41,968 bases of DNA from Desulforhopalus sp. (GTDB taxonomy: Bacteria > Desulfobacterota > Desulfobulbia > Desulfobulbales > Desulfocapsaceae), in contig JANJUM010000132.1 in the NCBI GenBank assembly GCA_024710585.1, forward strand, positions 1 to 41,968, written 5' to 3'. The notes beneath the pieces are model-generated. The model was not told the origin of the DNA, ran no database searches, and saw only the letters and a program-made list of their open reading frames with translations. The translations under genes and the position numbers were made by a program. Of this stretch, positions 2,858 through 18,272 are shown one piece after another (position 1 is the first letter of the stretch; each line of letters begins with the position of its first letter).

Positions 2858-3034
2858 ATGACCATCCCCGAGCACCTCTCTTCTTCGGCCTTGTGGAAGA
2901 AATGGGAATTATACTCAGCGCAGCAGAAGGAGGCCATCCTCAAGGAATTCCGCCGCAAGCTTCCCGAGGACCATTTCGACAAGAGGTTGCTGGTGCGTTT
3001 TCTGCGCGATAAACACCAGCAGCAGCCGCTCTGA
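2858..3034 (+). CDS. Microprotein B, copy 1: 58-residue W..WELY protein
   Basis: A soluble, highly charged, probably all-helical 58-residue protein. Its core is W-K-K-W-E-L-Y, then QKEAIL, EFRR, LPEDH and a C-terminal amphipathic segment LLVRFLRDK. The ATG at 2858 has GGAG 7 nt upstream and begins 44 bp after the end of microprotein A. Copy 2 at 17187-17354 matches 26 of 46 aligned residues, with most differences conservative (K/R, E/D, F/Y). That pattern strongly supports a real, selected gene. No known domain is recognised. The partner membrane protein next door suggests the two act together, for example a membrane anchor plus a cytoplasmic binding subunit, but that is inference. Confidence 0.75.
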   Translation: MTIPEHLSSSALWKKWELYSAQQKEAILKEFRRKLPEDHFDKRLLVRFLRDKHQQQPL

Positions 3035-15627: not shown

Positions 15628-16761
15628 ATGACCGCCGCCCGCAAGGATTTCCAGATCTTCGCCAAACCGGTCGGCTGGCGCTGCAACCTGCGCTGCCGAT
15701 ACTGCTACTATCTCGATACAGAGCAGGTCTTTTCAGACTCGCAGCCGGCAACCATGGGCGAGGCCCTGCTGCGCCGCTATATCGAGCACCACCTGCTCGC
15801 CCACCCCGGGGAGGTGGTGCGCTTCTCCTGGCACGGCGGGGAGCCGACCCTGCTCGGCCTCGACTTCTTCGAACGGGTCGTCCGGCTGCAAGGTCGCCTC
15901 TGCCCTCGGGGTAAAAAAGTCGCCAACGGCATCCAGACCAACGGCACCCTCATCGACGCCAGCTGGGCGGCGTTCCTCGCCGAACACAGCTTCACCGTCG
16001 GCCTGAGCCTCGACGGCCCGCAGCCGCTGCACGACCGCTACCGCTGCGGCCCGGGCGGCGAGGGCAGCTTTGCGCGGGCTTTCGCCGGCTACCAGCAGCT
16101 GCAGAGCCACGGGGTGGCAGTCGAGGCCCTGTGCGTGGTCAATGACGAAAACGTCATGTACCCCCTGCAGGTCTACGAGTTCTTCCGGGAGATCGGCGTG
16201 CGCGCGGTGAGCTTTCTGCCCCTGGTGGAACGGGGAGCGGAGGGGGTGGGCGGCGCCTCGGTAGAGCCCGAGGCCTTCGGCGCCTTTCTCTGCACCATCT
16301 TCGACCGCTGGCTGGCGCAAGATATCGGCCGCATCGCCGTGCAGATCTTCGAGGAGGCCTTGCGCACCGCCTTCGGGGAGGAGCACGCCCTGTGCCTCTT
16401 CCGACCGACCTGCGGCAATATTCCCACGGTGGAGCATAACGGCGACGTCTTCCCCTGCGACCATTACGTCCGGCCCGAACACCGCCTCGGCAATATCGCC
16501 GTCAGGCCCCTCCTCGAGATTCTCCGTTCGCCGCGACTGGCCGCCTTCGGCAACGGCAAGCGCCGCACCCTGCCCCAGGTCTGCCGAACCTGTCGGGTCC
16601 TCGACATGTGCGCCGGCGAATGCCCCAAGAACCGCTTCGTCGACCTGCCCGGCGAGACGATGAAGGGCAATTACCTGTGTGCCGGCTACAAGATGTTCTT
16701 CACCCACTGCCGGCCTTTCGTCGACGAGGTGGCGCGGCAGTGGCGCAGCCGACCTCGGTAA
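15628..16761 (+). CDS. Radical SAM/SPASM protein, anaerobic sulfatase-maturase-like
   Basis: 377 residues. The radical SAM cluster motif C-x3-C-x2-C is C19, C23, C26 (WRCNLRCRYCYY), followed by the SAM-binding segment FSWHGGEPTL and IQTNGTLID. The C-terminal SPASM part has many Cys residues (PTCGN, FPCDHY, CRTC, MCAGECPKNRF, NYLC, HC), matching AslB/anSME enzymes that oxidise a Ser or Cys of sulfatases to formylglycine. The ATG at 15628 has GAGGAAAA upstream. No sulfatase gene lies in the window, so the substrate is unknown; related SPASM proteins also modify peptides. It is divergent from the hydrogenase operon and 177 bp upstream of microprotein cassette copy 2 on the same strand. Confidence 0.88.
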   Translation: MTAARKDFQIFAKPVGWRCNLRCRYCYYLDTEQVFSDSQPATMGEALLRRYIEHHLLAHPGEVVRFSWHGGEPTLLGLDFFERVVRLQGRLCPRGKKVANGIQTNGTLIDASWAAFLAEHSFTVGLSLDGPQPLHDRYRCGPGGEGSFARAFAGYQQLQSHGVAVEALCVVNDENVMYPLQVYEFFREIGVRAVSFLPLVERGAEGVGGASVEPEAFGAFLCTIFDRWLAQDIGRIAVQIFEEALRTAFGEEHALCLFRPTCGNIPTVEHNGDVFPCDHYVRPEHRLGNIAVRPLLEILRSPRLAAFGNGKRRTLPQVCRTCRVLDMCAGECPKNRFVDLPGETMKGNYLCAGYKMFFTHCRPFVDEVARQWRSRPR

Positions 16762-16814
16762 CGGGAGCCTCGCCAATCCTTGATTTTTTTTGTGATCGGG
16801 CGGCGATTTCGCCC

Positions 16815-16850
16815 ATCGGTAACCTATCGGTAAGTGCCTCGCGGTAGAGT
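16815..16850 (+). promoter_or_regulatory. Tandem direct repeat plus -10, candidate activator site for cassette copy 2
   Basis: ATCGGTAA occurs at 16815-16822 and again at 16826-16833, an 11-bp period. TAGAGT (16845-16850, 4/6 to the -10 consensus) follows 11 bp after the second copy. Direct repeats one helical turn apart in place of a -35 are the layout of OmpR/PhoB-type activator sites. The microprotein A gene starts at 16939, about 88 bp downstream. Confidence 0.4.
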
Positions 16851-16938
16851 GAGCCCAGCGCGCAGCGGGCAGACCCGAACCCCGCCCCCAGCCCTGGGGG
16901 CGTCGTCGTCACACTCTTTCCCGGATGGAGGCAGCACC

Positions 16939-17121
16939 ATGGAACACTCGCAGATTATCATCGGCATCCTCTTCGTCCCCGTGCTCTTGCAGATCCTTCT
17001 CCCCCTCGCCTTGCTCCTCGGTTATTTCCTGCGCCGCCTGACCGCCCCCATCTTCTCCGGGCCATGGCGCAGCAGCGCGGCTGCCGGGGCGCCGTGCGCC
17101 CCCTCGTCGCAACAGGCCTGA
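16939..17121 (+). CDS. Microprotein A, copy 2: 60-residue one-helix membrane protein
   Basis: Sixty residues, the same length as copy 1 at 2631-2813. It starts with the same MEHSQI and continues with a hydrophobic helix (about 7-30) carrying FVPVLLQILLPLALLL, then YFLRRL and a Ser/Ala/Pro-rich tail unrelated to the copy 1 tail. The ATG at 16939 follows GGAGG. Conservation of the N-terminus and membrane helix with a free-running tail suggests that the membrane segment is the functional part. It lies 177 bp downstream of the radical SAM gene and behind its own candidate promoter, so it need not be in that operon. Family not recognised; function unknown. Confidence 0.75.
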   Translation: MEHSQIIIGILFVPVLLQILLPLALLLGYFLRRLTAPIFSGPWRSSAAAGAPCAPSSQQA

Positions 17122-17186
17122 GCCTGGGAATGATGCCCCCACCCGGAAGTATGTCTCACGCAGGCATCGATCAAGGAAGGAAGACC

Positions 17187-17354
17187 ATGCGCCACCACGA
17201 CCACAATGCCATCTGGCGACGCTGGGAGCTCTACCCGGAGCGGCAGAAGGAAGCCATTCTCGAGGAGTTCCGCCGTCGCCTCCCCGACGATCACTACAAC
17301 AAGGAGTTCCTCCTCGAGTTTCTCAAGGAGAAGTTCGAGCGTCAGGATGGCTGA
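17187..17354 (+). CDS. Microprotein B, copy 2: 55-residue W..WELY protein
   Basis: Fifty-five residues with a His-rich start (MRHHDHN). The conserved core follows: IWRRWELY (9-16), QKEAIL (20-25), EFRRRLPDDHYNKE (27-40) and FLLEFLKEKF (41-50). The ATG at 17187 has AAGGAAGGA just upstream; an earlier in-frame ATG is possible but gives residues not shared with copy 1. The gene follows microprotein A by 65 bp. The strong positional conservation with copy 1 (aromatic W/W/Y, LP.DH, K) implies a fixed helical surface. No Cys residues, no membrane segment, no recognised domain. A strong hairpin begins directly after the TGA. Confidence 0.78.
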   Translation: MRHHDHNAIWRRWELYPERQKEAILEEFRRRLPDDHYNKEFLLEFLKEKFERQDG

Positions 17355-17380
17355 CCCCGCCGCCGCGAGAGGCGGCGGGG
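17355..17380. terminator. Ten-bp perfect hairpin between convergent genes
   Basis: CCCCGCCGCC (17355-17364) and GGCGGCGGGG (17371-17380) form a perfect 10-bp GC stem with a 6-nt loop. It starts at the base after the microprotein B stop and ends 31 bp before the stop of the convergent hydrolase gene. Neither side has a T-tract, so it is a bidirectional hairpin terminator or RNA-end stabiliser; which of these cannot be told from sequence. Confidence 0.55.
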
Positions 17381-17411
17381 ATGCCAAGCGGTGTCGAGGT
17401 GGGGCGCCGGC

Positions 17412-18272
17412 TCAGCCGCCGAGCCTGCGCCTTAGGAAGTCGATGGTGCGCCGCCACGCCAGCTCCGCCGCCTCCTTGTTGTAGCGGGCGGGGTTGGTGT
17501 CGTTGTTGAAGGCGTGCTGCGCCCCCTCGTACATATGCAGCTCGTAGTCGACGCGGTGTTTGTCCAGCGCCTCTTTGAGGGCGGGAATGCCCTTGTTGAT
17601 GCGTTCGTCCAGTTCGGCGTAATGGAGAAGCAGGGATGCCTTGATGCGCACCACCTCCTCGCTGGCCGGCTGCATGCCATAATAGGGGACGGCGGCGACG
17701 ATATCCGCGGAATGTACCGCCAGGCTGTTGGCGATGGCCCCGCCCCAGCAGAAGCCAACCACCCCGACCTTGCCGGTACTGTGTGGGTGGGTCTTGAGGT
17801 AGGCCGCCGCGGCGGCGAAATGACCTATGGTCTGCTTCATGTCGAGGCCCTTGATCATGGCGATGGCCTTTTCCTCGTCGGGCGGCGTACCCCCTTGGGC
17901 CGACAGGGCGTCTGGGGCGAGGGCGATGAAGCCTTCCAGGGCGAGGCGGCGCGCGACATCCTCGATGTGCCGGTTGAGACCGCGATTCTCATGAACGACG
18001 AGGACGGCGGGCAGACGCGCCCCTTCCTTGGCCCGGGCCTCGTAGCCGCTCATCTTTCCTTCCGGCACGGCAAACTGCACCGAGCCCACCTGCAGCCGGC
18101 TGTCGTCGGCGGCGGTCAGGGCGGCCAGCGCCTCGCCCTTCTCGAGTATCGGCAAGAGGGCGTAGGCGGCCGCCACCCCACCGGCAAGAACCGTCAACTT
18201 CTCGAGAAATCGCCGCCGGTCGATAGCCTTGGCAAGGTACTGCGCGTAGAGCTGAACGGCTTCTTCTTTCAT
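17412..18272 (-). CDS. Dienelactone hydrolase family protein, YghX-like, with twin-arginine N-terminus
   Basis: 286 residues of the alpha/beta hydrolase fold. The DLH-type triad is C175 in GFCWGG, D222 in AELDERI and H253 in GAQHAF. VVHENRGLNRHIEDVARR (92-109) matches the E. coli YghX subgroup closely. The N-terminus has DRRRFLEKL (18-26) and then a hydrophobic stretch to about residue 42, resembling a Tat signal or anchor; cleavage is uncertain. The natural substrate is unknown, since DLH relatives hydrolyse dienelactone in aromatic breakdown but no such pathway is nearby. The ATG at 18272 has GGAGGAGG upstream. A TTGACT-18-TACATT promoter lies at 18360-18389. It converges on microprotein cassette copy 2 across a strong hairpin. 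Confidence 0.85.
   Translation of the reverse strand: MKEEAVQLYAQYLAKAIDRRRFLEKLTVLAGGVAAAYALLPILEKGEALAALTAADDSRLQVGSVQFAVPEGKMSGYEARAKEGARLPAVLVVHENRGLNRHIEDVARRLALEGFIALAPDALSAQGGTPPDEEKAIAMIKGLDMKQTIGHFAAAAAYLKTHPHSTGKVGVVGFCWGGAIANSLAVHSADIVAAVPYYGMQPASEEVVRIKASLLLHYAELDERINKGIPALKEALDKHRVDYELHMYEGAQHAFNNDTNPARYNKEAAELAWRRTIDFLRRRLGG

Follow-up and report, generated by a model that had tools for sequence, protein, structure and literature searches.

A likely acquired cassette of two unnamed microprotein families and its candidate regulation in Desulforhopalus sp.

Small membrane proteins are often overlooked, and their control can rarely be read from sequence. The closest described systems are AcrZ, a membrane microprotein that is the partner of an RND pump, and the phage shock (Psp) system, with its activator PspF, its membrane protein PspB, and its rhodanese PspE. 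Here, we compare with them a two-gene cassette located in a 41,968-nucleotide stretch of DNA from Desulforhopalus sp. (contig JANJUM010000132.1, hereafter the window). Its first gene, A2 (16939-17121, + strand), encodes a single-pass membrane microprotein of 60 aa with one hydrophobic helix and the conserved core PVLLQILLPL, and the second, B2 (17187-17354, + strand), a charged, soluble three-helix protein of 55 aa. Both reading frames are open in the window sequence and have ribosome sites ahead of them (GGAGG at 16927-16931 for A2 and AGGAAGG at 17174-17180 for B2). As originally predicted, a perfect 10-bp hairpin follows B2 (17355-17380, + strand, arms 17355-17364 and 17371-17380 around a 6-nt loop, fold z -3.8); it has no T-run, terminator calling gave no terminator there, and the genes on either side converge on it.

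By sequence, the family to which A2 belongs (family A) matched no Pfam or NCBIfam family. Like AcrZ, the A proteins have one short membrane helix containing a PV motif, but one of 21 members matched PF10766 only weakly (E 0.0027, not significant over 21 members), the hhalign probability was 31%, and, unlike AcrZ, A loci have no consistent pump neighbor; more generally, no transporter or complex consistently adjoins them. Some A loci recall the Psp system: the gene for the small membrane protein is transcribed away from that for a sigma54 activator, its promoter is -24/-12-like, and a rhodanese gene follows. In contrast with Psp, their activator is of the GAF type. Comparison of family A with PspB yielded no Pfam match and an hhalign probability of 6%. 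By sequence, A is not a PspB protein and probably not an AcrZ. At L119, L123, and L133, a gene downstream of A encodes a rhodanese-domain protein whose start resembles a signal peptide. Family B matched nothing in Pfam, NCBIfam, or the PDB.

Family A is a large Desulfobulbales family (75 genes, spread over 38 of 97 genomes with at most eight in each) whose aligned proteins have invariant P14, P22, and L23 residues and many of whose members are placed by genes coding for PAS-LuxR, GAF-sigma54, MalT-like LuxR, or FIST proteins. A sensor or regulator gene lies within 800 bp at 27 of the 59 A loci outside this genome, compared with 2 of the 20 loci containing B without A (Fisher 0.006), and it is divergent at 20 of the former and at none of the latter (Fisher 0.002), the B loci being the sole control for this adjacency. 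Regulators were assigned by sequence clusters, and the Pfam check, carried out on cluster representatives only, recognized PAS-LuxR proteins, GAF-sigma54 activators, FIST proteins, and a histidine kinase. Further partners include one BTAD match and a group that looks MalT-like by its sequence. Of the A genes, seven are divergent from GAF-sigma54 activators, and each of these is preceded by a -24/-12-like promoter ~110-160 bp upstream of the first start of the frame; among the 55 others, 12 have such a promoter (hypergeometric probability of about 1e-4). Judging from this gene order and these promoter motifs, A is likely a regulator-driven, inducible membrane microprotein.

The cassette under study had been described as a second copy. 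Its genes are indeed paralogous to A1 (2631-2813, + strand) and B1 (2858-3034, + strand) in the same window, but the genome contains three cassettes rather than two, the third full one being encoded on the minus strand of another contig (C171, locus L003) with a far lower G+C content (0.39-0.48 versus 0.55-0.67). Protein identity among the copies is 39-61%, and third codon positions have mostly diverged, less clearly so between A2 and A1. Every pair of B genes, as well as A1/A3 and A2/A3, has either a dN lower than dS or a saturated dS, which suggests purifying selection; the signal is weaker for A1/A2, the least clear pair (dN 0.34 versus dS 0.58). It had also been stated that copy 1 lacks a neighbor comparable to the radical SAM gene found next to copy 2. 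Although no such gene adjoins it, copy 1 does have a meaningful neighbor, namely a PAS-LuxR (GerE) regulator gene (1643-2410, - strand) divergent from A1, in an arrangement that recurs at five other A loci. Copy 3 is divergent from a gene for a FIST sensor protein. Since copy 1 retains the PAS-LuxR and copy 3 the FIST arrangement, and copy 2 alone has an operator-like tandem element, the three cassettes appear to be differently controlled, in agreement with the original prediction.

This tandem element is the direct repeat ATCGGTAACCTATCGGTAAGT (16815-16835, + strand), which has an 11-bp period and contains an exact 8-bp repeat, ATCGGTAA-CCT-ATCGGTAA, at 16815-16833. The repeat-containing promoter region proposed for copy 2 is therefore present, and it is unique: GTAA-N7-GTAA has a single site on both strands of the window, at 16819, 120 bp upstream of A2, whereas simulated sequence with matching dinucleotide composition would yield 0.017 per window. 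A stronger element, TTTGTAAGAAATTTGTAAGAAA, occurs upstream of B genes in relatives. The pattern GTAAGANNTNNGTAAGA has 11 exact sites in the 15 genomes of the genus (none for the reversed-pattern control); ten of them precede a gene or gene remnant of family B, and the remaining one precedes a gene for a HEAT-like protein, a relative of which is encoded 3' of a B gene. Likewise, when up to one mismatch was allowed, 23 B loci contained 11 sites, every one of them upstream of B. By contrast, in a genome-wide search at two mismatches the pattern performed no better than its reversed control, so that the strict form alone is informative. Because the copy 2 repeat differs by three mismatches from the GTAAGA-N5-GTAAGA of relatives, and no element of this type precedes copies 1 and 3, it stays a candidate operator.

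The GTAAGA-N5-GTAAGA element resembles an OmpR/PhoB-type operator and would be bound by a response regulator. The direct repeat of ~11-bp period expected ahead of genes of an OmpR/PhoB-type regulon is found before the B genes of relatives and, with the three mismatches, before copy 2, and PhoB boxes likewise consist of two direct half-sites 11 bp apart; a direct repeat has been reported for D. vulgaris PhoB (PMC3333781). PhoB itself was considered as the regulator and discarded: the GTAAGAAATTTG found upstream of pstS-like genes is part of the preceding coding region, where it encodes RKKFE, and, instead of GTAAGA half-sites, CTAAC-type repeats precede the true pstS of G004. Some other occurrences of these sequences may be mentioned. 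The HEAT-repeat-like protein (~780 aa; L138 and L050) is under an exact operator in G014, and its relative is located 3' of a B gene in G006. A near-operator, TGTAAGAAATTTGTCAGA, precedes another small-protein family, MHTDETEKLVDEAHAIFN... (L151 and L161). In G014, TTAAAGATTTTCGTAAGA recurs near dozens of contig ends, at a distance of ~20-130 bp, and is probably an assembly-breaking repeat.

Family B comprises 73 genes in 25 of the 97 genomes; among named records, close B genes are found in Desulfopila, Desulforhopalus singaporensis, and related assemblies (Desulfobulbales, Desulfocapsaceae), and none was found in plasmids, phages, or viral contigs. B was modeled by AlphaFold2 as three helices with fair confidence (pLDDT 79), and a fold search returned nothing significant. 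B is likely a small cytosolic helical protein with its own separate control, joined to A in this genome. In G004, G006, G007, and G011, the B gene is followed by one encoding a protein with RxxxR and [DN]xSxxG motifs, or a decayed form of it, and in G047 and G055 a similar PilZ-like domain is fused to A. Although these PilZ motifs are present, PF07238 scores reach 18-21 bits for a cut-off of 22.5 and some members have no match, so that the identity of the B-linked and A-fused proteins as PilZ, a c-di-GMP receptor, is likely, not established.

The gene preceding the cassette (15628-16761, + strand) qualifies as an anaerobic sulfatase maturase, with radical SAM and SPASM domains and a TIGR03942 score of 416 bits, over the cut-off of 349; the gene that follows it (17412-18272, - strand) belongs to the dienelactone-hydrolase family. 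In four relatives (G003, G004, G007, and G012), the gene order is the same as here, with the large and small hydrogenase subunits, the maturase, the dienelactone hydrolase, and an NlpC/P60-like protein, but the maturase and the hydrolase are separated by only 2, 31, 7, and 22 bp, respectively, and by 59 bp in G057, from another genus. Here, the spacing is 650 bp (16762-17411), taken up by the cassette. Since these conserved flanks stand 2-59 bp apart without a cassette in five relatives, the 650-bp stretch is likely a lineage-specific insertion or acquisition; a gain here rather than a loss in five relatives is the simpler reading but is not proven. No terminal repeats longer than 7 bp were found. 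The best explanation is that A2 and B2 form a small, self-contained operon, which this Desulforhopalus sp. lineage acquired between two older genes, next to an apparently unrelated maturase.

The original prediction had tentatively offered a different explanation for this proximity, namely that A2 or B2 is a substrate for modification by the radical SAM enzyme. The 177-bp gap from the maturase stop codon (16761) to A2, which we confirmed, and the shared strand speak for it, as does the similarity of the A2 tail, ...PCAPSSQQA, to the C-x-P-x-R site of sulfatase maturases, although the Arg is missing. So does the scarcity of other substrates: the only PF00884 protein in the genome assembly, L140 (G000:C34, 3733-5721), looks like a membrane phosphoglycerol transferase rather than a type I sulfatase, judging from its hydrophobic N-terminal part. 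A sulfatase as the reason for the maturase was consequently rejected: in this assembly, from which 4% of the genome is missing, no type I sulfatase that could serve as its substrate is seen. However, the relatives conserve the maturase and its flanking genes without the cassette, with no A or B genes inside the maturase loci of G003, G004, G007, and G012, and no other maturase gene was found near any A or B, so that the co-occurrence proposed as a check does not hold and no maturase-precursor linkage conserved across genomes was found at this locus. In addition, the C-A-P-S-S tail is missing from all the other aligned A proteins and, as had been noted at the outset, B2 contains no Cys. We therefore reject the substrate link, which we consider extremely improbable. 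Among the orthologous maturases (L252, L254, L256, and L259), most end in a SEC-C-like tail (NxPCPCGSGRKYKKCC), which is missing here and in G004.

The relationship between A and B themselves is a more delicate question. The proposal that they work as a single device was to be abandoned if the two genes were found apart in most genomes, and this is what we observed: within 1 kb, only four A-B pairs exist, three in this genome and one in G004 (L026). These represent 4 of the 75 A and 4 of the 73 B genes and, since the other 71 and 69 stand apart, A and B must be regarded as two families; the idea of an obligate pair is thereby weakened. The same counts would suit two unrelated proteins that each act alone, with no common task, and whose chance joining was kept by duplication. 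We regard this as somewhat unlikely, given that the order is always A then B in the three pairs here and in that of G004, and that PilZ-like partners occur with both families. A small toxin-antitoxin pair, with A as membrane toxin and B as its antidote, might also be imagined from the succession of a short hydrophobic and a short charged protein, encoded in several dispersed copies, one of them on an inserted stretch. Nevertheless, most genomes have A without B or B without A, and the siting by regulators and the sigma54-type promoters are unlike those of toxin-antitoxin pairs, which makes this possibility very improbable.

On balance, we lean, with modest confidence, towards an acquired A2-B2 operon in which A would be a membrane microprotein wired to regulators or sensors and B a cytosolic protein often under an OmpR/PhoB-type operator, the three pairs of this genome having three different controls. 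In such an operon, a signal would turn on both genes; A would use its two-proline helix to insert in the inner membrane and would dock on a membrane complex, and B would serve this response from the cytosol. The docking of A, the role of B, and any A-B contact are all inferred, the first from the conserved two-proline helix and by analogy with AcrZ or PspB. As A and B are rarely together, any joint function is surmised from four loci. A broader scheme, speculative and in our opinion distinctly unlikely as a whole, would make A and B a plug-in membrane output of the Desulfobulbales, in which A would be coupled to four or more kinds of sensors or regulators and, in some lineages, linked both to an OmpR-type regulon consisting almost entirely of the tiny helical B proteins and, through PilZ-like partners, to c-di-GMP.

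An adjoining radical SAM gene can thus mislead, and synteny with relatives dissolves the apparent link. The part of interest is not the maturase link but the A and B families and their control. Two unnamed families have been delimited, of which one has a sharp operator-like element and the other is repeatedly found beside different regulators; on both, regulator-target pairs of sulfate reducers can be tested directly.
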